Below, piece by piece: positions 20,428 to 42,708 of a DNA stretch of 64,000 nt. The DNA is from Chromohalobacter sp. 11-W. Its GTDB lineage: Bacteria; Pseudomonadota; Gammaproteobacteria; Pseudomonadales; Halomonadaceae. Below the pieces are notes generated by a model that saw only the letters and a program-made list of their open reading frames with translations, made no database searches and was not told the DNA's origin. The stretch is taken from contig NZ_JARANZ010000001.1 of NCBI RefSeq assembly GCF_029889905.1, positions 372,001 through 436,000 on the forward strand, read 5' to 3'. Every line of letters starts with the position of its first letter. The stretch's first letter is position 1. The position numbers and the translations under genes are program-made.

Positions 20428-20559
20428 GACGGCGAGGCCACGTTTTGTGGAATGCGGTCGCTTCCAGGCGCATCGGCTTCCTCTTCCTTCGGGGCTCGGG
20501 GCCATCCACACGATGGTGTAAGATACCGCTGGACGTTACCTCGACCGCCGGGAGCCCCC

Positions 20560-24192: not shown

Positions 24193-27100
24193 CGTCGCCC
24201 CGCCATGCCACGCCGCCGGCCGTTCAGCCCTTGGTGCTCGAGACCCTGCCACTGACCGGCTACCACCTGATCGAGGCCAGTGCGGGCACCGGCAAGACCT
24301 TCACCCTGGCGGCGCTTTATGTGCGTCTGGTGCTCGGCCCGTTGCCCGGGCGCGAAGAGCACGATTTCCCGCGCCCGCTGTTGCCGCCGGAAATTCTCGT
24401 GGTGACCTTTACCGAAGCCGCCACCGCCGAGCTGCGTGGGCGCATTCGCGCACGTCTCAAGGAGGCCCGAGACTGGTTGCTGGCATCGCAAGAAACGCGT
24501 GATGACAAGGTCCTCGCAGCGCTGCTGGGGCCCTTGGTCGAGGCCGGTGACGACGCCCTGGCCGGTGCCGCCAAGCGCCTCGACCAGGCCGCACGCCTGA
24601 TGGACGAGGCGGCGATCTTCACCATCCATGGCTTCTGCCAGCGCATGCTGACGCGCCATGCCTTCGATGCCGGCGCGCGTTTCGGTGCCGAGCTGCTGCA
24701 AGACGGCTCGGCTTTGTTGACGCGGGTCGTGGAGGACTATTGGCGTTGCCATTTCTATCCCCTCGCCGCGCACTGGCAGCGCGAAATTCGCCGCCGCTGG
24801 GAGGGGCCGGAGGCGCTGAGCCGTGCCTTGACGCCGCTGCTCAAGGAAGGCCGGGCACAGCCGCTGTGGTGGGACGATACGTATATCCAGGCGCCCGCGT
24901 CGTTAAGCGCGTTGCTGGAGAGCGCCGAGCGCTCGCTGGCCGTTCGCAGTGAACTGGAAGCCCGGCTGCGCCAAGCGTGGGATCGCGAGGCCATCGCGGC
25001 CTGCCTGCAGGACGCCTTCGAGCGCGGCGCCCTCAACAAGCGCAGTTACAAGCCGGAAGAGCTCGAGACACGCCTGGCGGCATTCGAGCAGTGGCTGACG
25101 ACACTCGAAGCGGGCGGCGATGGCGACACGACCGACAGCCAAGGCCGCTTCTGGCTGAGCCAGGCCAAACTCGAAGGGGCTAGCAAGAAGGGGCATGAGG
25201 CGCCCACGCATGCGTTTTTCGCGCTGCTCGATGAGCTGGCCGAGACCGCCACGCCTTTTGATCAGTTGGCGCCGCAAGTGTTGGCCCATGCCCGCGACAC
25301 GGTGGCGGCGATGTTCGCCGCCGAGAAGCGTCGTCAGGGCTGGTGGGAATTCGGCGATCTGTTGTGCGACCTGGACGCCGCGCTCGACCCCGACGCGGCT
25401 CCAGAGGCCGCGCTGCGCCTTGCGGGGCGCATTCGTCGGGCGCTACCGGTGGCGCTGATCGACGAGTTTCAGGACACCGATCCGCTGCAGTACCGCATCT
25501 TCTCGCGCATTTACCGGGCGCCCGAGGTGGAGACTACGACCACCTTGCTGATGATCGGCGACCCCAAGCAGGCGATCTACGCCTTTCGCGGTGCCGATAT
25601 CGACACCTATCTGGCGGCGCGGCGCGAAACCCCGAGTCGCTTCACCCTGGCGCGCAATTTTCGCTCCAGTCACGCCATGGTCGAGTCGGTCAATACGCTG
25701 TTCGCGCGCCATCCTGAACCGTTCGGCAGCGACGAGATCCCTTTCGTCGAGGTCGAAGCCCAAGGCAAGTCGACGCGTCTGGTAGATGCCGATGGCCACG
25801 ACATGGCGGCGCTCGGCGCTTGGTGGCCGGATGAGGAACGCCACACCAAGGCGGATTATCAGGCCCGCATGGCAAGCGCCGCGCGTGCCGAGGTCCAGCG
25901 GATGCTCGAGGGTGGTGCTTATTTTGTAGATAACAGCTCCGACGCTGCCAGCGGCGCCCGGCGTCCGGTACGTCCCGCGGACATCGCGATTCTGGTGCGC
26001 AAGGGCACCGAGGCGTTGGCGGTACGTCGCGCGCTGGCCGAGGGCGGCATTCGCAGCGTCTATCTCAGCGAGCGCACCAGCGTCTTCGATACGCCGTTGG
26101 CCTTCGAGCTGTTGCAGTTGTTCGAGGCGGTGGCGCAGCCGCGTCAGGACGCTCGCCTCAAGGCGGCGCTGGCGACGCGCCTTTTATGCGATACGCCGGC
26201 GACGCTGGAAACGCTGCTCGCCGATGAACTGGCCTGGGAGCGCGAAGTCGAGCGTTTCGCCGACTATCATCGCCAGTGGCAGCGGCGTGGTGTGCTGCCC
26301 ATGTTGCGTGCGGTGATGCGTGACTTCCGGGTCGCCGAACGCTTGGGGCAGCGCGACGACGGCGAGCGAGCACTGACCGACCTGTTGCATCTGGGAGAGC
26401 TGGCGCAGACGGTGTCGGCCCGGCTCGACGGCGAACATGCGCTGTTGCGCTGGTGGCATCGCGCGCTCCTCGAAGGGGCGGCCGAGCTTGATGCCGAGGC
26501 CGTCAGCCAGCGGCTGGAAAGCGACGAGGACCTGGTCAAGGTCATCACCATCCACAAGGCCAAGGGCCTCGAGTATCCCATCGTGTTGCTGCCGTTCGTT
26601 TGTGATTACCGGCCGGCGACGCCGGATCGCGGCACCGGCTTGCTCGAATGGCGCGATCCGCAACAAGGCCGAGTCTGGGTACATGGTGCCGACGACACGC
26701 AGCTGGCGGCCGCCGAGCAGGCGCGGTTGGACGAAGACGTGCGGCTGCTCTATGTCGCGCTCACGCGGGCCGCGCATGCCTGTCGCCTGGGCGTCGCGCA
26801 ACTGGGGCGCGGGCGCGGAGCGTCGAGCTGCCTGCACGAGACGGCGCTGGGCCGATTGCTGGGCTGCCAGGCCGATGACGACGGCCATGCTTTGCGCGAA
26901 CGTCTTGCGGCGGCGCTGAACGTCGAAGAACTGCCCGAGCCGCCCGGGCATCGCCTGAGCCTCGGCGACGGCGCTCCGGAAATGGCGCCGGCGCGACGTT
27001 TTACGGGGGGCATCGACGATGACTGGTGGATCGCCTCGTATTCGGCGTTGATCGTCGACGCGCGTCTCGAGACCGGCGGGGGCGCACAGGCGCTGCCTTG

Positions 27101-27971
27101 GGACGCCCCAGCGACGTTGGATGTCGAGGTCAGCCGCGAGCGCGATCCGGTGCCGCGTCCCGCCGCACGCACGCTGCGTGATTTTCCGCGCGGCCCGCGC
27201 CCGGGGACCTTTCTGCACGGCCTGCTGGAAGCGGTGGACTTCGACCGCCTGGGCGAACCGGCTTATCGCGACGAATTGCAGCGTCTGGTCAGCACGCGCC
27301 TGCACCTCGGTGGCTTCGACGCCGAGTGGGCGCCGGTATTGCTCGATTGGTTGTGCCAGGCCCTGCCGGCACCGTTCGCCGGCCATCAGGGCGCGGCGAT
27401 CCGTCTCGATGGACTGACCGCCTGGCGTGCCGAGCTGGAGTTCTGGCTGCCTACCGAGGATGCCTGGAGTACGCCGCTCGATGCGCTGGTCTGCGCATTG
27501 GAGCCCTTGCCGACGCCGCGCCCCCGACTGGCGCCGCGCAAGCTCAATGGCATGCTCAAGGGCTTCATCGATCTGGTGTTCGAGGCCGAGGACGGTCGCT
27601 GGTACGTCCTCGACTGGAAGTCCAATCATCTCGGCGATGCCCTGGCCGACTATCACCACGAGGCGCTGGCCGAGGCCATGGTCGCGCATCGCTACGACCT
27701 GCAGTACGTGTTGTACGTGCTGGCATTGCACCGCCTGCTGACGGCGCGTCTCGAAGGTTACGATTACGATACCCACATGGGCGGGGTCTGTTACGTGTTC
27801 CTGCGCGGCTTCGATGGCACGCCGGGTCATGGCGTCTTCCAGCGGCGCCCCGAACGGCGCTTGATCGAGGCCCTGGATGCCTGGCTCGCCGGCGACGCGG
27901 CGCCCGTCGAGGCGCTGCGTCGCGAACACGGCGTCGCCGCGCCTGAGACTGCCCCGGGAGAGAATGCATGA
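24189..27971 (+). CDS. recB: Exodeoxyribonuclease V subunit beta (RecB)
   Basis: 3'-5' helicase and nuclease subunit, 1260 residues. UvrD-type helicase motifs are in order: Walker A ASAGTGKTFTLAAL near residue 32, VTFTEAATAELRGRIR, LIDEFQDTDPLQYRIF, MIGDPKQAIYAFRGAD and ITIHKAKGLEYPIVLLPF. The C-terminal nuclease motif is near residues 1124-1144 (GFIDLVFE, then DWKSNHLG). ATGA overlaps with both recC and recD indicate a tightly coupled operon. Confidence 0.97.
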   Translation: MTSPRHATPPAVQPLVLETLPLTGYHLIEASAGTGKTFTLAALYVRLVLGPLPGREEHDFPRPLLPPEILVVTFTEAATAELRGRIRARLKEARDWLLASQETRDDKVLAALLGPLVEAGDDALAGAAKRLDQAARLMDEAAIFTIHGFCQRMLTRHAFDAGARFGAELLQDGSALLTRVVEDYWRCHFYPLAAHWQREIRRRWEGPEALSRALTPLLKEGRAQPLWWDDTYIQAPASLSALLESAERSLAVRSELEARLRQAWDREAIAACLQDAFERGALNKRSYKPEELETRLAAFEQWLTTLEAGGDGDTTDSQGRFWLSQAKLEGASKKGHEAPTHAFFALLDELAETATPFDQLAPQVLAHARDTVAAMFAAEKRRQGWWEFGDLLCDLDAALDPDAAPEAALRLAGRIRRALPVALIDEFQDTDPLQYRIFSRIYRAPEVETTTTLLMIGDPKQAIYAFRGADIDTYLAARRETPSRFTLARNFRSSHAMVESVNTLFARHPEPFGSDEIPFVEVEAQGKSTRLVDADGHDMAALGAWWPDEERHTKADYQARMASAARAEVQRMLEGGAYFVDNSSDAASGARRPVRPADIAILVRKGTEALAVRRALAEGGIRSVYLSERTSVFDTPLAFELLQLFEAVAQPRQDARLKAALATRLLCDTPATLETLLADELAWEREVERFADYHRQWQRRGVLPMLRAVMRDFRVAERLGQRDDGERALTDLLHLGELAQTVSARLDGEHALLRWWHRALLEGAAELDAEAVSQRLESDEDLVKVITIHKAKGLEYPIVLLPFVCDYRPATPDRGTGLLEWRDPQQGRVWVHGADDTQLAAAEQARLDEDVRLLYVALTRAAHACRLGVAQLGRGRGASSCLHETALGRLLGCQADDDGHALRERLAAALNVEELPEPPGHRLSLGDGAPEMAPARRFTGGIDDDWWIASYSALIVDARLETGGGAQALPWDAPATLDVEVSRERDPVPRPAARTLRDFPRGPRPGTFLHGLLEAVDFDRLGEPAYRDELQRLVSTRLHLGGFDAEWAPVLLDWLCQALPAPFAGHQGAAIRLDGLTAWRAELEFWLPTEDAWSTPLDALVCALEPLPTPRPRLAPRKLNGMLKGFIDLVFEAEDGRWYVLDWKSNHLGDALADYHHEALAEAMVAHRYDLQYVLYVLALHRLLTARLEGYDYDTHMGGVCYVFLRGFDGTPGHGVFQRRPERRLIEALDAWLAGDAAPVEALRREHGVAAPETAPGENA

Positions 27972-29935
27972 GCGACGCGCAATATTCCTTGACCCTGGAG
28001 GCGACCCCGCCTTCGCGCGCGAGATTGTTCGAGAGTCTGGCGTGGTGGGAGGCGCTGGGCTGGTTGCGCGCGCTGGACGCCCACTTCGTGCGCTTTCTCG
28101 CCGAGCACGACGCCGACGCACCCGCCGAGGTACTGCTGGCGGCGGCGCTCGCCAGCCATCAATTGGGGCGTGGCCATGTCTGCCTGGCGCTGTCGCGTGC
28201 CTTGGCGGCGCCGCGCGATGTGCTTTCGCTGCCGCCGTTGGAAGAAAGCGCGCCGCAGGCCGAGGTGCCGCTCCCCGAGGACTTCCTGCAGGGGTTGGAT
28301 AGCGCCACCTGGGCTGCGCGCTTGGCCGCGTCGCCGTTGGTGTCGCCGCCGGGGCCGGGCACCACGCCGCTGGTGCTGGCGGGCGGGCGGTTGTATCTAC
28401 GCCGCTACTGGTCGGCCGAACGGGCGGTGGCGGCGCATCTCGGCGAGCGCCTGGGACGGCCCCTGGCGGTGGAGGCGTCGCTGGCCGAGCCTCTAGCGCG
28501 GCTGTTTGCCGCGAACACCGCGCACGACGATGCGCCGGATTGGCAGAAGGTGGCCTGCACGCTGGCGCTGCGTAACCGACTGACGATCATTTCCGGCGGC
28601 CCCGGCACCGGCAAGACCACGACCGTGACGCGGCTTTTGGCATTGCTTCAGACGCAGGCGCTGTCGTCGGCGGAGGCGAGCCACGGCCTGCGTATCCAAC
28701 TGGCCGCGCCCACCGGTAAGGCGGCAGCGCGTTTGTCCGAGTCGATTGCCGGCGCGGTGAAGGACCTCGACGTCGGCGATGACGTCAAGGCGGCCTTGCC
28801 ACGCGAGGCGTTGACGCTGCACCGCCTGCTTGGCGCGCGTCCGGATACGCGACGCTTTCGCCATCACGCCGGGCATCCACTGAGTCTCGACCTGCTGGTA
28901 GTGGACGAAGCCTCGATGGTGGATCTGGAACTGATGGCCGCACTGCTCGAAGCCATGCCGGCGGAGGCGCGCCTGATTCTGCTCGGTGACAAGGATCAGC
29001 TCGCCTCGGTGGAAGCCGGCTCGGTGCTTGGCGATCTTTGCGCCAATGCTCTGGATCAGGGCTATTCGCCTCATGCCTGTGACGTTCTCGAGCGGCTGGC
29101 GGGGATCTCGATGACACCCGATGCCGCGTGCTCGCCACTGGCCGATCATGTGGTCATGCTGCGCAAGAGCTACCGCTTCGATGCGCATAGCGGCATCGGC
29201 GCCCTGGCGGCGGCGACCAATGCCGGCGACGTCGTGGCGTTTCGCCGCGCGTGGGACGCGGGGTACGCGGATATACAGTGGCTTTCGGCGGCGCGCGACC
29301 AGGCGGCCGTCGAGCGCGCCGCGTTGGCCGGCTATCGCGATCTCTACCGGCGTATCGTGGCAGGCGCCACGGCGACGGAGGCGCTGGAACGGCTCACGGA
29401 CTTCCAGGTGTTGTGCGCGCTCAAACGTGGCCCCTGGGGCGTCGAAGGGCTCAACGCGTGTATCGCCACACGCCTGTGGCGCGAGGGCTTCATCGACGAT
29501 CATCAGGGCTGGTACGCCGGGCGCCCGGTGATGGTGACACGCAATGACCCGCAATTGGGGCTCTATAACGGTGACATCGGTATCGTCTTGCCCGACCCCG
29601 AGGCGCAGCAGCGTCTGCGGGTGTTCTTCGCGACCGCCGATGGCGCGCGGGCGGTGTTGCCTTCGCGTCTCGAGGCCTGCGAGACGGTGTTCGCGATGAC
29701 GGTGCATAAATCGCAGGGCTCCGAGTTCGCCCATGTACTGTTCGTGTTGCCCGAGCACGCCAACCCGATTCTGACCCGCGAGTTGGTGTATACCGGCATT
29801 ACCCGCGCCAAGCGTCAGTTGACGCTGGCCGGCGGCGACGCGCGGGTCATGGACAGCGCCCTGCACCGACGCGTGGTGCGTGACAGCGGCTTCGCCGACT
29901 GGGTGTCGGCTCTGGAAGAGGAGGAGACATCATGA
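27968..29935 (+). CDS. recD: Exodeoxyribonuclease V subunit alpha (RecD)
   Basis: 5'-3' superfamily 1 helicase subunit, 655 residues. Motifs: Walker A ISGGPGTGKTTTVTRLL near residue 209, LAAPTGKAAARLSES, VVDEASMVDLELM, LGDKDQLASVEAGSVLGDL and the C-terminal AMTVHKSQGSEFAHVL. It starts inside the recB stop and its own stop overlaps the next gene, a creatininase homologue. Confidence 0.96.
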   Translation: MSDAQYSLTLEATPPSRARLFESLAWWEALGWLRALDAHFVRFLAEHDADAPAEVLLAAALASHQLGRGHVCLALSRALAAPRDVLSLPPLEESAPQAEVPLPEDFLQGLDSATWAARLAASPLVSPPGPGTTPLVLAGGRLYLRRYWSAERAVAAHLGERLGRPLAVEASLAEPLARLFAANTAHDDAPDWQKVACTLALRNRLTIISGGPGTGKTTTVTRLLALLQTQALSSAEASHGLRIQLAAPTGKAAARLSESIAGAVKDLDVGDDVKAALPREALTLHRLLGARPDTRRFRHHAGHPLSLDLLVVDEASMVDLELMAALLEAMPAEARLILLGDKDQLASVEAGSVLGDLCANALDQGYSPHACDVLERLAGISMTPDAACSPLADHVVMLRKSYRFDAHSGIGALAAATNAGDVVAFRRAWDAGYADIQWLSAARDQAAVERAALAGYRDLYRRIVAGATATEALERLTDFQVLCALKRGPWGVEGLNACIATRLWREGFIDDHQGWYAGRPVMVTRNDPQLGLYNGDIGIVLPDPEAQQRLRVFFATADGARAVLPSRLEACETVFAMTVHKSQGSEFAHVLFVLPEHANPILTRELVYTGITRAKRQLTLAGGDARVMDSALHRRVVRDSGFADWVSALEEEETS

Positions 29936-30765
29936 GCGCTTCATCGCCTGAACATGCCGCGATCGGTGGCGTCGACTGGGCGTCGTTGAGCAGCCCCGAG
30001 CTGGCCCGTCGCGTCGGCCCGGAGAGCGTGGCGTTGTTGCCGCTGGGGGCCATCGAACAACATGGCGCGCACCTGCCGCTTTCCACCGACGTGGATATCG
30101 CCGAGGGCTTGGTGGCGGCGATGCGTGAACGTGTCGCGGCGTCGCGGGATTTGCTGATACTGCCCACGCTGGCGGTGGGGTCGAGCCTCGAGCATGGTGA
30201 CTTCGCTGGCACCTTGAGTCTGACGCCGGAGACGGCCATCGCGCATCTGGTGGATATCGGCGCCAGCGTGGCGCGAGCGGGGATTCGTCGCCTGGTACTG
30301 TTCAATAGCCATGGCGGCAACAAGGCGGTGGTCGATCTGGCGGCACTCAAGTTGCGCGAGCGCCATGGCTTACTGGTGGTCAAGGCAAATTACTTTCGCT
30401 TTACGCCGCCCGACGACGCGCTGCCCGCCGAGGAGTTGCGGCACGGGCTGCATGGCGGCGCGCTGGAAACCGCGATGATGATGCATTTGGCGCCGCACAA
30501 GGTACGCCAGGCCGCGCTCGGCGAGGCCGTCTCGCTAGGGGCTCATCAGGAACGCGCCGGGCGCACGCTACTCCCCGAGGGCGATGCCGGTTTCGCCTGG
30601 ATGGCGCAGGACCTGCACCCCAGCGGCGTGGTCGGCAACGCAACCCTGGCCACGCCGGCCCTGGGGGAACGGCTGGTCGCTCATTTCGCCGCGCGCCTGG
30701 CGCGCGTGATCGAGGAAGCCTGCTGCTTCGATCTTACCCAACTGCGTGCACGTTCGCTGCAGTGA
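29932..30765 (+). CDS. Creatininase-family amidohydrolase
   Basis: A 277-residue metal-dependent amidohydrolase. The metal-binding motif is GAIEQHGAHLPLSTD, which supplies Glu, His and Asp. NSHGGNKAVVDLAA and GGALETAMM supply the other ligands. The family includes creatininase and the archaeal deformylase ArfB of riboflavin/F420 synthesis. The start overlaps recD by four bases, so it rides on the recCBD transcript, but the gene beyond it is a GTP cyclohydrolase II homologue in opposite orientation. This context suggests an amide or formamide of a GTP-derived pyrimidine as substrate. That is inferred. Confidence 0.88.
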   Translation: MSASSPEHAAIGGVDWASLSSPELARRVGPESVALLPLGAIEQHGAHLPLSTDVDIAEGLVAAMRERVAASRDLLILPTLAVGSSLEHGDFAGTLSLTPETAIAHLVDIGASVARAGIRRLVLFNSHGGNKAVVDLAALKLRERHGLLVVKANYFRFTPPDDALPAEELRHGLHGGALETAMMMHLAPHKVRQAALGEAVSLGAHQERAGRTLLPEGDAGFAWMAQDLHPSGVVGNATLATPALGERLVAHFAARLARVIEEACCFDLTQLRARSLQ

Positions 30766-30778
30766 GCGGTACGTCACG

Positions 30779-31933
30779 TCATTCGAGCGAGCCCGACGTA
30801 TCGCGGCGCGGGGTGCGCCTGTCGGTGGCGTCGGGGCTTTCGAGCAGGTCCTCCAGCCAGTGTCCGGCGCGTTCGGCCTTGGCGCTCAGGTAGCGTCGAT
30901 TGTGCTCGTTGAGCTGGCCGTAACAGGCCTCGCGGCCCACCACGTCGATGCCGCCGAGGCTCATGGCCGCGATCTTCTCGGGGTTGTTGGTCAGCAGCGC
31001 GATGCGCGTGACGGCAAGCTCGGCCAGCATCTGCAGCGCTGCGCGGTACTGCCGCTCGTCCTCGCCGAAACCCAGCACCTGATCGGCATCGACGGTGTCC
31101 AGTCCTGCATCCTGCAGGCCATAGGCGCGCAGCTTGTTGGCCAGGCCGATGCCGCGTCCTTCCTGGGCGAGATACAACAAGATGCCGCCGCCACGTTCGC
31201 TAATGGCCGCCACGCTGGTGCGTAGTTGTTCGCCGCAATCGCAGCGTAGGCTGCCGAACAGATCGCCCGTCAGGCAGGCCGAATGCAGACGCACCGGCAC
31301 GGCATCCGCCCAGTCGGCGGGGTCGCCGACTAGCACCGCTAGATGCTCGCGCAGGCCGTCGCTTTCACGGAACAGCACGAAACGGGCGTTTTCGGCCTCG
31401 GCGAGGGGCACGTTGGCTTCGCTGATACGCTTGAGCGACGTCGTATCGCCTTCGCCGTAGCGTTGCACGTCGTCGAGGGCCACACCGAGCAGAGTACCGT
31501 CGTCGATGAGCGCGGCCAGGGCATCGCGCTGTGTCGCATCGACCCGGGCGCTGAGCGCGGCAGGGACCAGCAGGCCGCGCCGCATCAAACCCAGCGCGGC
31601 CGTTTCCGCCACCGAAGCGGGCTCGGGCGGATGGGCACTCGGGGGCTTGGCCATGGCGGCCATGGCCCAGGCGACGACATCGCTGGCGCGGTGATGCGTG
31701 CCGAGTGGCAGGCTTACTGCGTCGGCGTCATCGGGAGCAATTGCGCCCAGTCGGGCGAGGCGATGCGTGGTGATCACCAGGCTTGGCGCGTGGCCGGCCA
31801 TATCGGCGAGCGTGGCCAGGGCGGTGTCGTCGATGCCTTCCAGTGGCTGGATCAAGACGGCGTCTTGCGGGGTGTGCAGCACGACCGGCAGGCCGCGGCG
31901 CAAGTCGAAGATCGCACGTTCTACCTGTCTCAT
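30779..31933 (-). CDS. GTP cyclohydrolase II with degenerate RibB-like N-terminal domain
   Basis: A 384-residue RibBA-like protein. The C-terminal half is a well-preserved GTP cyclohydrolase II: zinc cysteines C220, C231 and C233 in SACLTGDLFGSLRCDCG, then YLAQEGRGIGLANKLRAY, DTVDADQVLGFGEDERQY and LLTNNPEKI. The N-terminal half begins VERAIFDLRRGLPVVL like DHBP synthase, but the acidic DDEDRENEGD-type catalytic loop is replaced by HTPQDAVLIQPLEG. Only the cyclohydrolase is therefore likely to be active. AAGGAGAGG precedes the ATG. It is divergent from a RibD-type reductase gene, so a housekeeping riboflavin role is possible, but the neighbours suggest a special pathway. Confidence 0.88.
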   Translation of the reverse strand: MRQVERAIFDLRRGLPVVLHTPQDAVLIQPLEGIDDTALATLADMAGHAPSLVITTHRLARLGAIAPDDADAVSLPLGTHHRASDVVAWAMAAMAKPPSAHPPEPASVAETAALGLMRRGLLVPAALSARVDATQRDALAALIDDGTLLGVALDDVQRYGEGDTTSLKRISEANVPLAEAENARFVLFRESDGLREHLAVLVGDPADWADAVPVRLHSACLTGDLFGSLRCDCGEQLRTSVAAISERGGGILLYLAQEGRGIGLANKLRAYGLQDAGLDTVDADQVLGFGEDERQYRAALQMLAELAVTRIALLTNNPEKIAAMSLGGIDVVGREACYGQLNEHNRRYLSAKAERAGHWLEDLLESPDATDRRTPRRDTSGSLE

Positions 31934-32016
31934 GAGCCTCTCCTTGGTTTTTGCGCGTCGTAATGCTTCGATGACGTGTCATGACACTTTCGTTGGCACA
32001 CGGCACGGGAGACCGT

Positions 32017-32862
32017 ATGAGCCCTGCGACACTCGATGTGGCGCTGGCCTGGCATGGGATTTGCGAGGCTCGACGCCAGGACTGGGACGCCCATGCGGCG
32101 TTGACGCTGGCGAGCGGCCGGCTGCGAATCTGGCGCGGCGGCGCCTGGCAGGCCGAGGGCCCGGTCACGGCGGAGGCGACGGCGCTGCTCGATAGCCTGC
32201 TGCCGAGCAGCGCCACGCCCGGGCGTTTCGTCATCGCGCAACTCGGTCAGAGTCTCGATGGACGTATCGCCACGATCACCGGCGCCTCGCACTACGTCAC
32301 CGGCGAAGCGAGCCGTGTGCATCTGCATCGCTTGCGTGCGCTGGTCGATGCCGTGGTCATCGGGGCGGGTACGGCCTGTGCCGACGACCCGCAGCTCACC
32401 GTGCGGCATGTGACGGGGGATAACCCGGTACGCGTGATTCTCGACCCCAATGGCCGCGTGCCCGCGACCAGCGGTGTACTCCAATGCAGTGACGCTCCCA
32501 CGTTGCATATCACTCGGCATCCGTTGCCGCGCGATACCCTGGGCGCGCATGTCGAATCGCTGGTGCCCGAGGACGCGGCCGATCTGACGCCGTCGGCGCT
32601 GCTCGACGCCCTGGCGGCACGTGGTCTTCGCCGCGTGCTCATCGAGGGCGGCGGACAGACCGTGTCGCGCTTCCTGGCGGATGGTCAGCTCGATCGTTTG
32701 CATGTGGTCGTGGCGCCACTGTTGATCGGTTCGGGGCGTCCGGCGGTGAGCCTGGCCGAGATCGAGACCCTCGATGCCGCCCTGCGTCCGCCATGTCGCA
32801 CGTTTGCGATGGGCGACGACACGCTTTTCGATCTGACGCTGCGTCCCGGTCACGTGGGGTAA
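32017..32862 (+). CDS. Stand-alone RibD C-terminal-type pyrimidine reductase
   Basis: A 281-residue protein whose residues ~75-275 match the RibD reductase domain: QLGQSLDGRIATITGASHYV, VHLHRLRALVDAVVIGAGT, CADDPQLTVR, RVILDPNGRVP and VLIEGGGQTVSRFL. The deaminase domain of bifunctional RibD, with its HAE and PCxxxGxxPPC motifs, is absent; about 75 unrecognised residues replace it. I prefer the ATG at 32017 (GGGAGA upstream) to the ATG at 31981. It probably reduces the ribosylamino side chain made after GTP cyclohydrolase II. It is divergent from the cyclohydrolase homologue. Confidence 0.85.
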   Translation: MSPATLDVALAWHGICEARRQDWDAHAALTLASGRLRIWRGGAWQAEGPVTAEATALLDSLLPSSATPGRFVIAQLGQSLDGRIATITGASHYVTGEASRVHLHRLRALVDAVVIGAGTACADDPQLTVRHVTGDNPVRVILDPNGRVPATSGVLQCSDAPTLHITRHPLPRDTLGAHVESLVPEDAADLTPSALLDALAARGLRRVLIEGGGQTVSRFLADGQLDRLHVVVAPLLIGSGRPAVSLAEIETLDAALRPPCRTFAMGDDTLFDLTLRPGHVG

Positions 32863-33004
32863 GAGGGTGTTTACAAAACAGGCGAACGATGGCAAGACAA
32901 GGCAAAATTGGCCGAAAACACGGAGTTTACATGGGGTAAATGAGTCTTTTGAGGCCGATTTTAACGCCGGATTGTCGAGTGCAGGCCTTTTGTAAATACC
33001 CTCT
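32862..33004. mobile_element. MITE-like palindromic element with 17-bp terminal inverted repeats
   Basis: A 143-bp non-coding insertion. The left end AGAGGGTGTTTACAAAA (32862-32878) and the right end TTTTGTAAATACCCTCT (32988-33004) are inverted repeats with one mismatch. The inside is an imperfect palindrome too (CAAGGCAAAATTGGCC against GAGGCCGATTTTAACG). No transposase gene is present and no convincing target duplication is visible. It sits exactly between two convergent stop codons, beginning at the last base of the upstream TAA, and its fold could act as a bidirectional terminator. Confidence 0.75.
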
Positions 33005-33007
33005 GCG

Positions 33008-33988
33008 TTATCGCGCATGGCAGCCTCCTCCGCTCTTGCTCGTTAGTGGGGCGCCTGCCGAGGTGTCATGGTCTCGACGCTGGCGACGCCGGTGGCAGAG
33101 TAGCCAGGCACCTGGCAGGCTCGAGATCAGCACGATGACTCCGTAGATCAGCGAAATGGCCACGCCCTGGGCGGGATCGAGCCCGGCGCCTATCCACACC
33201 AGTGCGGCGGCACTCTCACGTAGCCCCCAACCGGCTACCGAGAGGGGAATCGCCATGACCATCAGCACCGGCGGAATCAGTGGCAACAGGGTGGCGAGGT
33301 CGATATCGGCCCCAATGGCACGGGCGGTGATGGCATAGACGGCGATATAGCTCGCCACCACACCCAGGGAACTGAGGCATTGCCAGAGCCACATGCGCGA
33401 GGCGACCAGGGCGGTGCTGAGATCGCCCAGCGTGTCGCGCAGCCAGGTCGGCGGGCGGCGATAACCCCAGATCGCCAGCCCGCTCAGCACGATGATCCCC
33501 GTCGTCAGTACAACAGGGGCATTACCCAGCCGAGCAAGGCCACTGAGCACGCTATCGCGCAAGGTCGGCGAAGCTAGCAGCCCCACGATGGCGATCAGTG
33601 CCAGCATCAGTTGGCCTGAGAGGCGTTCGATGATGACGGCGCGCCACGCTCGTGGTCGGTCGCTACTCGACCGGGCATGGCGCCAGGCCCGCGAGGCATC
33701 GCCGATGACGCCGCCCGGCAGTACCTGGTTGAGAAAGGTAGCCACGTAGTATTCCGCCACGGCACGGCGTAGCGGTAGCGTCAGACCCATGCGCCGGGCG
33801 GTCAGGCGCCAGCGCCAGGCGGAGAGCACGACCTGGGGCACGCTGATGGCCAATGCCAGCAACAGCCAGCCCGGCGCGGGGGCAACGAAGGCGTCACGTA
33901 GTGCCCGAGCGTCGAGCTGCCAAGCGATGACCCCGAGCAGCACCAGGCTGACGCCCAGACGTGCGAGGGTCGCGTTAGCGGGACGCAT
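33008..33988 (-). CDS. Lysylphosphatidylglycerol synthase TM-region / flippase-like membrane protein
   Basis: A 326-residue integral membrane protein of the UPF0104/MprF-flippase-like family. It has about eight hydrophobic segments, starting LGVSLVLLGVIAWQLDARAL, with the family's NQVLPGGVIGDASRAWRH loop and a late LPLSVAGWGLRESAAALVW motif. Family members are proposed to move lipid-linked or polyisoprenoid compounds. The start at 33988 overlaps the methyltransferase gene by 14 bases. It is the last gene of the operon and abuts the MITE-like element. Confidence 0.88.
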   Translation of the reverse strand: MRPANATLARLGVSLVLLGVIAWQLDARALRDAFVAPAPGWLLLALAISVPQVVLSAWRWRLTARRMGLTLPLRRAVAEYYVATFLNQVLPGGVIGDASRAWRHARSSSDRPRAWRAVIIERLSGQLMLALIAIVGLLASPTLRDSVLSGLARLGNAPVVLTTGIIVLSGLAIWGYRRPPTWLRDTLGDLSTALVASRMWLWQCLSSLGVVASYIAVYAITARAIGADIDLATLLPLIPPVLMVMAIPLSVAGWGLRESAAALVWIGAGLDPAQGVAISLIYGVIVLISSLPGAWLLCHRRRQRRDHDTSAGAPLTSKSGGGCHAR

Positions 33989-34841
33989 GGGGTGGCTCCG
34001 GGGCGGCGAACACATCGCGGTGCCCGACGAGCAGGTCGAGATGCCCTCGGTCGAGGGCCTCCCGGCGGTGTTGCCACCAGCGCTCGATGCGCTGGCGATC
34101 ATGCGGCGCTTGCTCACGGGCGGCGGCGGCCCAGCCGTCGATGAGGCTCAGCGCCAGGGGGCGCTGCGCCGGCGTCAGGCGCCAGGGGCTTTCAGCGTCG
34201 ACGATGTGAAAGTCTCTGGCGGTGAAGGCTGCGATCAATGCCTGGGGCGCCGTGGTGCCAAGCGCAGGGCCGAGGCCTTTGTCGCGGCGTTGATGCGCGG
34301 CGAGTATCTCGAAGAGCCAGGCATCTTCGTCATCATTGACCATCACGTCATCGGCCTGGAAACGAATGTTGCCGTCCACGCTGAGTGTGATCAATGTCGC
34401 GGCGTGATGAGCCGCGCAGGCATCGGCCAGGGCCTCGACCCAGGTGGCGCTGACCAGATCGCACAGTGCCGAGGCGGTAACGAGGTCGATACCGGCGAAC
34501 CAAGACGTGTCGAGCGCATGCAGGTCGCGCTGGTGTGTGGTCACGTGGATGGATGTGCCCGCGTTATCGCGCAAGGGCTGACAGCGCCCCACGGCATGGC
34601 CCAGCAGAGAATCGTCATGATCGATTAGATGCCAGTGCTGGGGCCCCGGCAAGCGAGGCGCGAGATAGCGCACATTGGCACCGCTGCCACTGCCGAGATC
34701 GAGTAGTTGCCAGGGAGCGTGGCGCTCACGCGTGGCAAGCCAGTCGACGGTGGCCTGCAAGGGCGCCATGGCGCGGGCATCGTGATCGGCTTGCTCGCGC
34801 CTCGCCAGCCAGGACTCGCTGAACGTACCGGCAGTGTTCAT
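33975..34841 (-). CDS. Class I SAM-dependent methyltransferase
   Basis: A 288-residue cytosolic protein with SAM-binding motif I LLDLGSGSGANVRYLAPRL, followed by HWHLIDHDDSLL as the acidic motif II and IDLVTASALCDLVSATW. The C-terminal region contains RLTPAQRPLALSLIDGWA, which I do not recognise from a named family. Its start overlaps the glycosyltransferase stop (ATGA) and its end overlaps the membrane protein gene. Substrate unknown; probably modifies the compound made by this operon. Confidence 0.87.
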   Translation of the reverse strand: MNTAGTFSESWLARREQADHDARAMAPLQATVDWLATRERHAPWQLLDLGSGSGANVRYLAPRLPGPQHWHLIDHDDSLLGHAVGRCQPLRDNAGTSIHVTTHQRDLHALDTSWFAGIDLVTASALCDLVSATWVEALADACAAHHAATLITLSVDGNIRFQADDVMVNDDEDAWLFEILAAHQRRDKGLGPALGTTAPQALIAAFTARDFHIVDAESPWRLTPAQRPLALSLIDGWAAAAREQAPHDRQRIERWWQHRREALDRGHLDLLVGHRDVFAAPEPPHASR

Positions 34842-35887
34842 GCGGCGCCTCGTTGCAAGGCGGTGGCGAAGGCCGCACCGACCTGCGACCAGTCACGCAG
34901 CGAGCCCCGGGCGCGCTCGGCGCCTTCGCGCCATGCTTGACGTTTATGGGGGTCGCTGAGCATCTCGCGCAGCGCAGCGGCGAGCGCCTCGACATCGCCG
35001 GGTGGCACCTTTAGCCCGGCATCGTCGGGAAGAGTATGGGCGAGTGCGCCGCCGGTGGTGGTGATCACGGGCAGGGCATGTGCCAGGGCTTCGCTGACGA
35101 CCATGCCGTATCCCTCGTAATGCGAGGGCAGCACGAAGATATCGCTGGCGTGATAGGCCTCGTCCAGCGCCTCGGCGGATCGCTCGCCGAGCAAGTGGAT
35201 ACGTTCTTCCAGGCCGTGGGTGGCGATACGTGCCTGGACATCCTCGACATGCGTCGGCGCGCGGTCCAGGCCACCGATGCAGTCGCATGTCCAGGGCAGA
35301 TCGGTCAGTGTGGCCAGCGCCTCGACGAGCACATCATGTCCCTTGCGCGGGGTGACCGTGGCCACGCACAAAAGGCGAGGCACCTCAGCGTTACCATGGG
35401 CCGGGACGGCGCGCATAACGCCGGGTTCGACCACGTGCAAGCGCTCCGGCCCTACCTCGAAATCCGCCAGACGCCGAGCGGTGAAAGGGCTGGTGACGAT
35501 GACATTGTGCACCGCCGAAAGCGCGCGCGTTTCGCTGATCAAGAAGCGCTCGCGTTCGGCGTCGCCAAGACCGGTTTCGTCGGCGAGCGGATGGTGAACC
35601 AGGGCGGTGAGCGTCACGCGCTGGGCATGAGCTTCGAGCACGTCGGGTAACCCGCCCATCGCGAGTCCGTCGATAATTACATGGGCGCCTGCGGGCCGGG
35701 CCGCTAAAGCGTTTTCCAGTGCCTTTTTTGCCGTGGCGTCGGGTTCGGGAAAACGCCCCTCGAGGCCGATGACCTCGATCGGCCAGCCATGTTCGCGCAG
35801 GGCCGTGACGACGCGCGCATCGTAGACGTAGCCGCCGGTCAACTGCGCTGGGTCGCCGGCAACGATCAGAGTCACGGGATGGCTCAT
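34838..35887 (-). CDS. GT4-family glycosyltransferase
   Basis: A 349-residue GT-B fold protein. The N-terminal acceptor domain has [17 protein letters not shown], and the C-terminal donor domain has [18 protein letters not shown] and the GT4 hallmark [20 protein letters not shown] with [14 protein letters not shown] after it. It is coupled by ATGA to both the PTPS-like gene before it and the methyltransferase after it. A sugar transfer to the pathway's product is inferred from this context. Confidence 0.9.
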
Positions 35888-36282
35888 ATCGCGCCCTCGT
35901 AATTCGCCCAGGCGATATGCGATTCATGCAGCGTGACGCCGAGGGCCGTCAGACCATGCCCGGTCTCGCCGAGTTCGCCCTGGCGGATGGCGTGGGCGAG
36001 CCGCTCGAAAATCACCTTGGCCATGAATTCGGTGGTGGTGTTGCGCCCCTGGAATTCGGGAACCTCGTCGAGGTTGTTGAAATTGAGCTCGCTCAGAACG
36101 CGGGAAAGCGTCTGGCTGGCCAGGCCGATATCGACGATGAGGTCGTCGCGGTCGAGTTCGGGGCGCTTGAAGGCGACATCGACCACATAGGTGGCGCCGT
36201 GCAAGCGTTGCGCGGGGCCGAAGATCTCGCCGTTGAAGCTGTGCGCGATCATGAAATGGTCTCGAACCGTCAGGCTGAACAT
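35884..36282 (-). CDS. 6-pyruvoyl-tetrahydropterin synthase/QueD-fold protein lacking catalytic triad
   Basis: A 132-residue protein with the PTPS T-fold. MIAHSFNG supplies the first zinc His (H14) and RLHGATY the second (H28). The HGH motif has become HGA (A30), the catalytic Cys position is Ala (A24), and the Asp-His pair of LDHxxLN is Ser-Glu (S64-E65, LSELNFNNL). The pterin-anchoring Glu survives as E120 in [12 protein letters not shown]. The protein is therefore not a standard PTPS or QueD enzyme. An AAGGAG site precedes the ATG. A 75-base gap separates it from the dehydrogenase gene upstream. Confidence 0.87.
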
Positions 36283-36357
36283 CCGTGTGGCTCCTTTTGT
36301 ATTGCCATGTATTACCGGTTATGCGTATTACGTGGGTGTCGTCGCATAGTGGCAGTG

Positions 36358-37335
36358 TCACGAATAGCGTATGCGATGGCACAGTGCCGGGCGATCCGCG
36401 TCGCTCAGTCGTGCCAAGGCAGCGGGTAGATCAAGGAAGTTGCTTTCTCCGTCGATCAAGGCATCGAGACGGGCATCGCGGAGTAGCGTCAGGGCTAGTT
36501 GTAGACGCTGAGCATGGCTGCGTCGCGCGCGTCGTGCTGGCGAGACACCGCCGACCTGGCTGGCACGCAGCGTCAACCGCTGCGAATGGAAAGCCTCGCC
36601 GAGGGGCAATGCAACTTCGTCGCGTCCGAACCAGCTCAGTTCGATGATTTCTGCTTCGTATCCCGCCAGTTCAAGGGCGCTGCGCAAGCCATGCGGGTTG
36701 CCGCTGGCGTTGATCACTATGTCTTGTTCAGCCTCGGCATCGTGCGGGTGGCGAAAGGGCAAGCCCAACGCCGCGGCCAATTCGGCCTTACCGGCATCGA
36801 TGTCGAGCAGTTGCACGCGAACCCCCGCCGTTTGTTGGCATAACCAGGCGACCAGGCTGCCGACCACGCCGGCGCCGACAACGCTGATCCGGTCGCCGAC
36901 GCGTGGGGCGGCGTCCCACAAAGCGTTGACGGCGGTTTCCATGTTGGCCGCGAGGACCGCGCGTGTGGCGGGAAGGTCCTCGGGCAGGGGCACGACGGCC
37001 TCGATGGGAACGACGTAACGTGTCTGATGAGGATAGAGACAGAAGACCTCGCGACCGCACCAAGCCTCCGGCCCCTCCTCGACCACGCCGACGTTGGCAT
37101 AGCCATATTTGACCGGCCCCGGGAAATCCCCTTCCTGAAAAGGCGCGCGCATGCGGGTGTATTCGCTCTCCGGGATCTTGCCTTGAAAAACCAGGCTCTC
37201 GGTGCCGCGGCTGACGGCGCTGTAGCGTGTTCTGACCAACAGCTCATGCGTCTGGCGGGTGGGCAAGGCGTGCTGTCTAATTTCACCGTGCCCCGGTGCC
37301 TGTATCCAAAAGGCCTGGGCGTTCGCTGCGAGCAT
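36358..37335 (-). CDS. MDR-family (zinc-type alcohol dehydrogenase-like) oxidoreductase
   Basis: A 325-residue medium-chain dehydrogenase. The Rossmann motif is SVVGAGVVGSLVAWL, followed by LLDIDAGKAELAAALGL. The N-terminal catalytic domain has TRYSAVSRGTE where zinc enzymes have a Cys-containing GICGSD-type motif, and the four-Cys structural zinc lobe is missing. The protein may therefore be zinc-independent, like BchC-type or bi-domain oxidoreductases. AAGGAGA lies six bases before the ATG. First gene of the dehydrogenase-PTPS-GT4-methyltransferase-membrane protein operon, divergent from a CDP-alcohol phosphatidyltransferase. Confidence 0.87.
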   Translation of the reverse strand: MLAANAQAFWIQAPGHGEIRQHALPTRQTHELLVRTRYSAVSRGTESLVFQGKIPESEYTRMRAPFQEGDFPGPVKYGYANVGVVEEGPEAWCGREVFCLYPHQTRYVVPIEAVVPLPEDLPATRAVLAANMETAVNALWDAAPRVGDRISVVGAGVVGSLVAWLCQQTAGVRVQLLDIDAGKAELAAALGLPFRHPHDAEAEQDIVINASGNPHGLRSALELAGYEAEIIELSWFGRDEVALPLGEAFHSQRLTLRASQVGGVSPARRARRSHAQRLQLALTLLRDARLDALIDGESNFLDLPAALARLSDADRPALCHRIRYS

Positions 37336-37358
37336 GGCAAATCTCCTTATTCACCTTG

Positions 37359-37387
37359 AGTATCGTCCATGACACCATTCATGTACA
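37359..37387 (-). promoter_or_regulatory. Candidate promoter of the dehydrogenase/PTPS operon
   Basis: On the minus strand, GATACT (37359-37364) is a fair -10 element, 17 bases from a TGTACA (37382-37387) standing where a -35 would be. The -35 is poor and is itself part of the TGTACA array, which suits an activator or repressor site over the promoter. Confidence 0.35.
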
Positions 37388-37416
37388 GGTATTGTACATA
37401 GAGGTGTTTGTGTACC
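37381..37416. promoter_or_regulatory. TGTACA array, candidate LitR/MerR-type operator
   Basis: ATGTACA (37381-37387) and TGTACAT (37393-37399) form a perfect inverted repeat around GGTAT. From the second TGTACA, 12 bases lead to TGTACC (37411-37416). TGTACA-N12-TGTACC differs by one base from the T(G/A)TACA-N12-TGTA(C/T)A box that I recall for PplR1, a light-responsive LitR homologue of Pseudomonas putida. It lies midway between the divergent dehydrogenase and CDP-alcohol phosphatidyltransferase genes and could control both. Confidence 0.5.
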
Positions 37417-37515
37417 ATTTTATTTTAAGGTTCGAGTGCTATCAGCGTAGTGAAAATCGCGCTGTTTATGGGGCCCTCTGCCATAGTTAAACGCAGACGT
37501 TGGGGAGAAAAGGTC

Positions 37516-38268
37516 ATGCGTGACACATCACGCCACGCCATTGGTCGCAGGGTATCGTGGGTACATGGGTTGCCGGCGGTACTGGAACTACTGTTGGGCT
37601 TGTGCCTGGTGGGGCTGTTGGTGGAAACCCTCCAGTGGCATTTGGCGGCGCCCCCTGGGCTTGGCTGGACGGTAGGAGGTGTGTATCTGGCGATGGCAGT
37701 CATGATCGTATGGGGTTGGCCAGTAGCATTGCGTTGGCTGGGCTGGGCCAATCGCGTGACCTTGCTGCGGGGCGTGTTGATCGCACTGCTGGCCGGCAGC
37801 ATGGCGTTTCCCGCCTTTATGCAGCGTCATGCGCTGGAAATGGGAGGGCTGGCATTGTTGGCCTTGTGCTTGGATGGCCTCGATGGCTGGGTGGCACGAC
37901 ATACGCATTCCGCCACTGCCTTCGGCGCCCGGTTTGACATGGAGCTGGATGCCTTCTTCATCGCCGTGTTGTGCTGCGCGCTCGTGGTGCTCGACAAGCT
38001 GGGCGGTTGGGTGCTGTTGTGTGGGGCGCTGCGATATGTCTTCGTCGCGGCAGGATATGCCTGGACATGGTTGCGGCGGCCGTTGCCGTCGAGTTTACGC
38101 CGCAAGGTGGTTTGCGTGTGGCAGGTGGTCAGCCTGCTGGCAGCGTTGCTGCCTTGGGTCTCGCCCTTCTGGGCCATGTTGAGTGTGGGCCTGGCGCTGG
38201 TATTGCTGTTGTACTCGTTCATGAGTGATGTCGCGTGGCTATATCGCCACCGGCGCACGCGTATCTGA
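37516..38268 (+). CDS. CDP-alcohol phosphatidyltransferase family protein
   Basis: A 250-residue membrane enzyme. The family signature D-x2-DG-x2-AR-x8-G-x3-D-x3-D is complete in DGLDGWVAR followed by GARFDMELD (about residues 122-147). About six hydrophobic segments surround it. The ATG at 37516 has GGGGAGAAAAGG upstream; an earlier in-frame codon at 37450 does not. The family transfers a phosphoalcohol from CDP-diacylglycerol or CDP-alcohol. Next to the pterin-like operon it may attach a lipid or polar head group to the product. That role is inferred. Confidence 0.88.
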   Translation: MRDTSRHAIGRRVSWVHGLPAVLELLLGLCLVGLLVETLQWHLAAPPGLGWTVGGVYLAMAVMIVWGWPVALRWLGWANRVTLLRGVLIALLAGSMAFPAFMQRHALEMGGLALLALCLDGLDGWVARHTHSATAFGARFDMELDAFFIAVLCCALVVLDKLGGWVLLCGALRYVFVAAGYAWTWLRRPLPSSLRRKVVCVWQVVSLLAALLPWVSPFWAMLSVGLALVLLLYSFMSDVAWLYRHRRTRI

Positions 38269-38335
38269 GGTCTTGCGGTCCCGGAGGGGCATCCGGCTCA
38301 ACGTAAGATTCAGCTTATGCGCTTGACCGGCCCGC

Positions 38336-39148
38336 CTAGTGATGTTCTTCCAGGTGATTCAGGTGGTTGATGAACTGCGTGAAAATCTCAGCCTGAGTGG
38401 AGGTGTTCAGTCGCGAATGGATGTTCTTGCGATGCACCTTTACCGTGCCGACGCTGATTTTCAGGTGGTCGGCAATCGCTTGGGAAGAAAAACCCCGCAG
38501 GATGAGATCGGTAATTTCCCGTTCACGCTGAGTCAGCACACCGCTGGCGAAAGTGCGCAGCGCGCGCTTCATGGGGCCGTCGGAACGGCCGTATTGCAGG
38601 AACTCGTCGGACTGGGTCTGCCAGAACTGACGCATGAGCGCGCTGATGACCGGGTGAAACTCTTGTAGGGCATTCAACTCAGTGCGCGAAATGCTTTCCA
38701 GCGAGGCTTTGCGCCCGAGCGTGATGGCGCAGGTCACTTCGTCATCCAGACGGATCAATAGATTGATCTCATCCACCAGCCCGAAGTTCTGATAGCAGGT
38801 TTGATAGTACTCAGTGCTTTTGAATGAGTCCGGCATGATGTCGGCAAGTCGCACGATGCCGGGGGATGCGGTGTCCTTGATGGCGTGGAAAAGTGGGTCG
38901 AGTACATAGGCATGGTTGATGTACTGGCGCAGGGTGTCGCTCTGCTCCGCTGGATCGGAAGGATGTACGAGAATCGGTCGCAGCGATTTCTTGTAGGTCA
39001 GGAGCAGAATCGTGTCGAAGAAACACAGGGTCGACAGGAAGGCCTCCAGCATCGCCGGAAAACTGCGCAGTCGCTGATGCTCGATGAGTACGGCCAAGTT
39101 TTTCTGCCAACTCTCATTGGTCTGTATCTGATTGACGCGATCTCGCAT
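38336..39148 (-). CDS. LuxR-family transcriptional regulator (paralogue 1)
   Basis: A 270-residue regulator with a C-terminal GerE/LuxR HTH: LTQREREITDLILRGFSSQ, then KISVGTVKVHRKNIHSRL. The N-terminal ~200 residues have no named domain that I recognise but share a pattern with the second LuxR protein of this window: FDTILLLTYK, YINHAYVLDP, STEYYQTCYQNFGLVDEI. It is divergent from a glutamine synthetase-like gene and probably controls it in response to a polyamine or a derived metabolite. Confidence 0.9.
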   Translation of the reverse strand: MRDRVNQIQTNESWQKNLAVLIEHQRLRSFPAMLEAFLSTLCFFDTILLLTYKKSLRPILVHPSDPAEQSDTLRQYINHAYVLDPLFHAIKDTASPGIVRLADIMPDSFKSTEYYQTCYQNFGLVDEINLLIRLDDEVTCAITLGRKASLESISRTELNALQEFHPVISALMRQFWQTQSDEFLQYGRSDGPMKRALRTFASGVLTQREREITDLILRGFSSQAIADHLKISVGTVKVHRKNIHSRLNTSTQAEIFTQFINHLNHLEEHH

Positions 39149-39290
39149 CGCTTGTCCTTGCTCTTGTACGCCGCCGGCAGGGCGTTATCGGGGATTTCCC
39201 CAAGGCTAAGCTAGATGGTGGACCGGCACCAGTCCGGCTCGCCTTCGGGTCATGCGGCAGGCAGAGATAAATGACGTCTTCCACCGACCG

Positions 39291-39308
39291 GATACCCCTG
39301 GGGTGATA
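39291..39308. promoter_or_regulatory. CCCC/GGGG dyad upstream of the first GS-like gene
   Basis: GATACCCCTGGGGTGATA holds a CCCCTGGGG-centred dyad in the 228-base gap between the LuxR gene and the GS-like gene, about 70 bases before the GS start. Related dyads occur in two other intergenic gaps of the polyamine block. It may be a LuxR-paralogue operator. Confidence 0.4.
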
Positions 39309-39376
39309 GATACACCGCTATCTGGATGGGATATCTTGATGCTCTGATTTTCGAAAAGCATTCAAGAGTCACGCGT

Positions 39377-40726: not shown

Positions 40727-40780
40727 TCCTGGCTAGGTCCTGAATACATGCACGGCGAGACCGTGAGCGAGGAATCCGTC

Positions 40781-41518: not shown

Positions 41519-41587
41519 GCGTCGTCGAGCGTATCTGACATGGCCATCCTGCTGCATAGGCTTGTCGTACGATAGTGCCTGACAGGG

Positions 41588-42700: not shown

Positions 42701-42708
42701 GACGAACC

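Follow-up and report, generated by a model that had tools for sequence, protein, structure and literature searches.

Chromohalobacter sp. 11-W carries a nine-gene cluster at positions 29932..38268 of the DNA analysed here, a 64,000-nucleotide stretch (contig NZ_JARANZ010000001.1, positions 372,001 to 436,000) referred to below as the window. Judging from sequence and gene linkage, we see about an even chance that this patchily distributed cluster produces a 2-amino-pyrimidinone or pterin compound from GTP, methylated, glycosylated, phosphatidyl-linked and flipped. The early steps of such a pathway are well supported; the ring chemistry and the lipid linkage we infer. A previous sequence-only reading had proposed a glycosylated, methylated and possibly lipid-linked product made from GTP. 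This proposal stands in outline, and the supply of a diaminopyrimidine has been strengthened by a pattern that connects a tyrosine of the GTP cyclohydrolase with the creatininase, read together with the excerpt consulted of a published study (PMC9478397); the later chemistry stays conjectural.

All nine open reading frames (ORFs) were assessed with Pfam and NCBIfam models. Each is open at the coordinates below and belongs to the family that the sequence-only reading had given it:

29932..30765, plus strand: cre, creatininase-family amidohydrolase, probable formylamino pyrimidine (FAPy) formamidase (PF02633, 2.9e-67)
30779..31933, minus strand: gch2, GTP cyclohydrolase II (GCHII) with an N-terminal extension of about 165 residues (PF00925, 6.9e-54, residues 169-334 of 384)
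31981..32862, plus strand: ribD, RibD C-terminal-type reductase without deaminase domain (PF01872, 4.5e-41)
33008..33988, minus strand: flip, flippase-like LPG_synthase_TM membrane protein (PF03706, 5.9e-40)
33975..34841, minus strand: mt, class I S-adenosylmethionine (SAM) methyltransferase (26.2 bits, just under the Pfam cut-off of 27)
34838..35887, minus strand: gt4, GT4 glycosyltransferase (Glycos_transf_1, PF00534, 2.5e-32)
35884..36282, minus strand: ptps, PTPS-fold protein of the SCO6650 type (PF01242, 3.8e-25)
36358..37335, minus strand: mdr, MDR dehydrogenase, apparently zinc-free (ADH_zinc_N, 19.9 bits against a cut-off of 31.8)
37382..37398, no strand: TGTACA-N5-TGTACA dyad, a possible operator in the divergent mdr/cdp intergenic region (exact match)
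37450..38268, plus strand: cdp, CDP-alcohol phosphatidyltransferase, divergent from mdr (CDP-OH_P_transf, PF01066, 9.4e-17)

The tight five-gene operon described previously was recovered as a minus-strand run in which mdr is separated from ptps by 75 nucleotides (nt), and ptps, gt4, mt and flip follow with overlaps of 4, 4 and 14 nt. The start of flip is probably the ATG at 33988; the GTG start in the ORF list, at 34117, falls within mt. Beyond the flip end of this run, ribD, gch2 and cre lie on alternating strands, and the start of cre overlaps the stop of an upstream recD-like gene by 4 nt.

Conservation was assessed in 88 loci, comprising 80 genome loci, seven plasmid loci and the window. 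For the genome loci, the best 80 of at least 574 PTPS-profile matches were taken, so that PTPS is present there by construction; this sample is skewed to Halomonadaceae, Marinobacter and Streptomyces. The plasmid loci were chosen from mdr matches. Seven of the 88 loci are contig pieces shorter than 15 kb, and some gene absences are due to truncation. C. moromii has a PTPS with 98% identity to the window protein. Across this set, mdr was found in 88 loci, ptps and gt4 in 87 each, mt in 86, cdp in 77 and flip in 63, followed by ribD (52), gch2 (50) and cre (49). The nine-family set of the sequence-only reading thus holds as a conserved cluster in which RibD (52/88) and the CDP-alcohol transferase (77/88) are not universal. 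Gene order is alike across Pseudomonadota, Actinomycetota and Acidobacteriota, which rules out chance neighbours as the explanation. The commonest order, seen in 20 loci, is cdp- mdr+ ptps+ gt4+ mt+ flip+ cre- gch2+; a second, seen in 12, is identical through flip and continues with ribD- gch2+ cre-. In a set of 58 genomes that includes the window's own, mdr was found in 25, with ptps and gt4 within about 1.5 kb of it in every one of these loci and cdp in 24. Pairwise distance correlations among the nine families were all positive (0.34-0.90); because they ignore kinship between species, no weight is placed on them. In an even draw of 398 Pseudomonadota genomes the PTPS profile matches 27 (in 20 of 213 genera), which marks the cluster as patchy and accessory. 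Within the genus Chromohalobacter, cre is present in 10/10 genomes.

The linkage extends to archaea. Matches to mdr were found in 29 plasmid records, 12 of them haloarchaeal, and the haloarchaeal plasmids carry reduced versions of the cluster. For example, a Natronorubrum plasmid has cdp-mdr-ptps-gt4-mt, interrupted by one small gene on the opposite strand, a Halobellus plasmid has mdr-ptps-mt, a Haloarcula pelagica plasmid has cdp-GTP cyclohydrolase IIa-mdr-ptps-mt, and a Natrarchaeobaculum plasmid has GTP cyclohydrolase IIa-mdr. H. marismortui carries cre, cdp, mdr, an unannotated ptps stretch, gt4 and mt, and in three haloarchaeal stretches cdp and mdr are close neighbours. The co-occurrence of these families, on which the sequence-only reading depended, is therefore conserved across phyla and, in reduced form, in archaea. 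Within 8 kb of an SCO6650-like PTPS gene on a Streptomyces anthocyanicus plasmid (L123 7998-8423), no other cluster gene is annotated; this PTPS gene adjoins a MEKHLA-domain gene. Other genes near the cluster include an FkbM-type methyltransferase in 10/88 loci (L034, L033, L057, L058, L061, L063, L067, L072, L092 and L093). Cytochrome b561 was considered as a partner and ruled out, being found near the cluster in only 2/88 loci.

The first step, from GTP to a diaminopyrimidine, is very likely. GCHII, or GTP cyclohydrolase IIa/III in some haloarchaea, would open the guanine ring; a GCHII without the deformylating Tyr would halt at FAPy, from which the creatininase would strip formate to give 2,5-diamino-6-ribosylamino-pyrimidinone 5'-phosphate. 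This step is well supported. The window GCHII is 44% identical over 195 residues to a separate RibA of the same genome and retains the Cys motif and Tyr271, which aligns with Tyr105 of PDB 2bz0, an entry we take to be the Escherichia coli GCHII. At the Tyr105-equivalent position, the 50 cluster GCHIIs carry Tyr (21), Met (26), His (2) or Ile (1). A creatininase lies nearby in all 29 of the non-Tyr clusters, and Tyr is kept in each of the six GCHII clusters that lack cre (L033, L034, L082, L093, L100 and L109); by our own arithmetic, the chance of all six falling among the 21 Tyr clusters is 0.003. Such a pattern is expected if the creatininase deformylates the GCHII product. It is supporting evidence and not proof, as the Met group is mostly one lineage and cre may lie beyond the locus edge. 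The 26 Met-type enzymes are all actinobacterial; Met at this position is presumably the change present in Streptomyces coelicolor SCO6655, presumably another part of the cluster already known, which reportedly (Spoonamore 2006, cited in PMC3509567) stops at the formyl intermediate. The window enzyme differs from the SCO6655 type in its Tyr and its N-terminal extension, and in being clustered with ribD. The creatininase motifs EQHG..LPL.TD, N.HGGN and H.G..ET, presumably those of the metal site, are conserved in at least 95% of the 49 cluster copies.

Five haloarchaeal plasmid records out of 12 (5/29 of the plasmid records overall) have GTP cyclohydrolase IIa annotated under the mdr match; for two of the five the gene neighbourhood was read. 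This archaeal enzyme, which we equate with GTP cyclohydrolase III, is unrelated to GCHII. The replacement of one by the other makes little sense unless the pathway is fed by GTP ring opening, and the joining of two cyclohydrolase types to the same core is the strongest sign that it is. According to the excerpt consulted of one study, the product of the archaeal enzyme requires a separate formamidase, and BrbF, a bacterial creatininase relative, deformylates the formylamino pyrimidine intermediate (PMC9478397). The window creatininase resembles the formamidases BrbF and ArfB in its family and in its adjoining GTP cyclohydrolase, and, in the case of BrbF, in the intermediate it would act on. It differs in its linkage to gt4, mt and cdp, in scoring 25.7 bits against the ArfB cut-off of 180, and in falling below the cut-offs of the three other creatininase-type NCBIfam models listed; no BrbF model was among its NCBIfam matches. 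It is a probable FAPy formamidase, on the indirect evidence of the Tyr/creatininase pattern.

A second step, optional and moderately supported, would be the reduction of the ribosyl side chain to ribityl by RibD. The cluster RibD matches RibD_C only (residues 82-263) and has the SLDG and L-x-V-R motifs in common with the bifunctional RibD of the same genome. No deaminase domain was detected among the nine cluster proteins with Pfam or NCBIfam models; because the cluster has none, the 2-amino group would be retained.

In a third step, the SCO6650-type PTPS and the MDR dehydrogenase would build and adjust a pterin-like ring or side chain. Residues 1-130 of the window PTPS align with residues 22-151 of PDB 3d7j (SCO6650, described as 'uncharacterized') at E 6.5e-53. 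Among eight aligned bacterial sequences, E85 and E120, presumably the pterin anchor, are invariant, and there is no conserved Cys between H14 and H28; the window protein has H28-G-A30 in place of the canonical HGH, and a haloarchaeal copy (L029) retains HSH. Canonical PTPS uses an active-site Cys and zinc-binding His residues, according to the excerpt consulted of PMC2229834. The cluster protein departs from canonical PTPS and QueD in both respects, the HxH zinc ligands and the active-site Cys, so that it would enter this step without the canonical catalytic residues and with conserved Glu at the pterin-anchor place. The best NCBIfam model for mdr is BchC (TIGR01202, 2.3e-12), at 46.6 bits against a cut-off of 291. 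Its 88 sequences have an SRGTE motif and, in conserved columns that were not aligned to a zinc enzyme, no zinc-type Cys pattern; at least 80% of them share two other Cys residues, at about 98 and 319. Judged by the usual MDR zinc sites, the dehydrogenase is apparently zinc-free. Whether the product contains a pterin-type ring is, in our judgement, evenly balanced.

In a fourth step, the methyltransferase and GT4 enzyme would decorate the compound, and a methylated and glycosylated product is likely. The AlphaFold model of mt (pLDDT 94.0) has a class I methyltransferase as its top Foldseek match (E 1.1e-11). The fold gave no indication of substrate: the 50 Foldseek rows are varied methyltransferases and SAM-dependent enzymes such as cyclopropane synthases, with query-normalised TM-scores of at most 0.60.

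The fifth step concerns the membrane. A PgsA-like transferase would link the compound to a phosphatidyl group, with the sugar phosphate as a plausible site, and the flippase-like protein would carry the resulting lipid across to the outer leaflet. Many relatives encode a YceI-type lipid-binding protein directly behind the transferase, which would there receive the lipid. The catalytic motif DxxDGxxAR...GxxxDxxxD of the CDP transferase shows no variation across 27 aligned sequences, of which two are haloarchaeal, and the structural model of the transferase matches a solved fold, that of the PGP synthase PgsA, which is the closest by VIA-align. YceI proteins bind isoprenoid or amphiphilic lipids. 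Genes of this family occur in 23/88 loci, 22 of which have a clear YceI domain with mapped ends. In 21 of these 22, drawn from Alpha-, Beta- and Gammaproteobacteria, YceI immediately follows cdp in the same orientation, with 37-243 nt between domain ends; in the remaining one (L095) it is 6 kb from cdp. One of the 21, an alphaproteobacterial metagenome-assembled genome of Kiloniellales (L057 6795-8198), encodes a cdp-YceI fusion of 468 residues (CDP-OH_P_transf 2.8e-16, YceI 3e-40). A protein resembling the sulfatase superfamily, below the Pfam cut-off, occurs in 15/88 loci. Together, YceI, the sulfatase-like protein, cdp and the flippase favour a product located in the membrane or envelope. 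That the product is phospholipid-linked and flipped falls, in our estimate, just short of an even chance.

Several observations weigh against this pathway. At the entry step, 15 clusters, the window's included, carry a Tyr-type GCHII together with a creatininase that should be redundant, and five loci have a creatininase with no GCHII in the stretch seen. A single lineage, Streptomyces and its relatives, accounts for most of the Tyr pattern. No GCHII is in view in 38/88 loci; truncation and the archaeal type apart, these presumably draw on the housekeeping supply. The ribityl route cannot be general, because ribD was not found in 36/88 loci, some of them truncated, and because none of the eight Streptomyces genomes with a ribD-less cluster (8/8) has a RibD copy at E 1e-10, in a search of limited reach, which also missed the weaker RibD-type gene of a Lentzea cluster (L087). 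On the lipid side, no YceI or sulfatase-type gene was detected beside the window cluster, and cdp is missing from 11/88 loci. Among seven cdp-less genomes that were searched, three have a clear copy elsewhere and four have none (the remaining cdp-less loci are two on plasmids and two short contigs), and cdp was not seen in the 10-kb Halobellus stretch. A phospholipid product is therefore not obligatory. In addition, YceI could serve the transferase in a separate module.

These gaps give some room to a soluble, exported pterin glycoside with a redox, light-screening or signalling role, for which cdp and the flippase would serve a lipid carrier or envelope partner. Four genes (mdr, ptps, gt4 and mt) form a near-invariant core, some lineages lack cdp and some the flippase, and pterin glycosides are found in cyanobacteria, as described in the excerpt consulted of PMC13259868. 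However, cdp is present in 77/88 loci and near mdr in the three haloarchaeal stretches too, and YceI stands directly behind it in 21 loci, once as a fusion. We regard the soluble product as possible and rather unlikely. The lipid-linked reading, in its most far-reaching form, predicts a new class of membrane lipid in at least three bacterial phyla and haloarchaea, with a phosphatidyl-linked, methylated and glycosylated guanine-derived pterin or pyrimidine headgroup that is redox- or light-active, faces the outer leaflet and is handed to YceI in many proteobacteria. In this full form it is unlikely.

A chemical variant of the preferred pathway, with which it can hold together, is a bypass of GTP cyclohydrolase I. 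GCHII and the creatininase would again provide the diaminopyrimidine, which the PTPS-like protein would turn into a neopterin-type phosphate through Amadori rearrangement and closure; RibD, if present, would act as a dihydropterin reductase. T-fold proteins act on such intermediates, E85 and E120 of the PTPS are kept, and RibD is dispensable, being found in 52/88 loci. On the other hand, RibD keeps its riboflavin-reductase motifs and the genome already has folE, and we consider this bypass unlikely.

The genome of the window has three GCHII-family and two RibD_C places. The order nrdR-ribD-ribBA-ribH-nusB (some names from reading ORFs), a separate ribA by hemE, and folE with queC-queE-queD all lie elsewhere. 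The sequence-only reading had left the existence of a separate riboflavin pathway to be checked; ribD, ribBA, ribH and a second ribA were found, by a search that did not cover ribE. Because riboflavin, folate and queuosine genes exist elsewhere, the cluster genes are not the housekeeping copies. That they are redundant riboflavin, folate or queuosine genes brought together by accident is extremely improbable: GCHII, RibD and PTPS each belong to such families, but separate homologues are present in the genome, the cluster PTPS scores 45 bits against the NCBIfam QueD cut-off of 89.25, and the linkage to gt4, mt and cdp is conserved. The QueD-type ORF linked to queC-queE (L002 1402-2286; C12:229408-230160 of the same genome) has two PTPS-family matches in one 294-residue frame.

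The dyad between mdr and cdp suggested a MerR/LitR-like operator. With up to two mismatches, the window holds two matches against a shuffle mean of 0.46, and 8 of 100 shuffles reach two. At this threshold the dyad lies upstream of mdr in six of nine Halomonadaceae regions parsed (of 14 listed), two of them from the same genus, and in 0/71 others. A TGTGCG-N5-TGTGCA version, with three mismatches, is found at a similar distance in 18 Streptomyces loci. Across the genome of the window there are 11 matches against six for a reversed control, with palindromic sites counted on both strands. Of the three read (L129, L133 and L135), the near-matches L129 and L135 (C1:56763 and C23:319746) adjoin two PAS chemoreceptor genes and a methyl-accepting chemotaxis protein gene, and the third adjoins apparently unrelated genes. 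In view of these neighbours and of the 11 against six in the control, a light regulon was rejected and no regulon is claimed. One sigma-70-type promoter was found at 37445-37417 against 1.3 expected, and no Rfam match at gathering score was found in 29000-39500.

Toxoflavin-type 7-azapteridine clusters use GCHII, a RibD-type protein and a methyltransferase for a secondary metabolite; to our knowledge, they lack PTPS, GT4, flippase and CDP-alcohol transferase. Cyanobacterial pterin glycosides start from GTP cyclohydrolase I, and the window cluster differs in its GCHII/III, RibD reductase and phosphatidyltransferase. Their likeness to the proposed product lies in a pterin-type core with a sugar and a possible role in light protection, as far as the excerpt consulted goes (PMC13259868). 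The sequence-only reading knew of no described pathway with this list of enzymes. In the literature searched, which consisted of open-licence papers, we recognised no paper describing the cluster or its product and found none on a pathway or product of the S. coelicolor SCO6650/SCO6655 locus, although PMC2853524 names SCO6655 once; this statement therefore stands, except that SCO6650, a close homologue of the window PTPS, and presumably SCO6655 are already known parts. The halopterins of Haloarcula marismortui, considered as product candidates, were not named in that literature.

Among the neighbouring genes, large recBCD-type genes, named from reading ORFs, occupy window positions 20452-29935 directly upstream of cre. 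A gene for a LuxR-type regulator (38336-39148) follows cdp, and glutamine synthetase-like, glutamine amidotransferase-like and agmatine deiminase-like genes at 39326-42712 look, from their sequences, like a polyamine degradation block.

The conservation of gene order from Streptomyces to Chromohalobacter, together with the reduced haloarchaeal version, indicates that the product, apparently an undescribed metabolite, has real physiological value. The cluster also places two Streptomyces orphans in context, namely SCO6650 as the PTPS homologue and a GCHII that is said to stop at the formyl intermediate, and supplies directly testable genes and substrates. If the lipid-linked reading is true, it would represent a new lipid headgroup chemistry common to bacteria and archaea.

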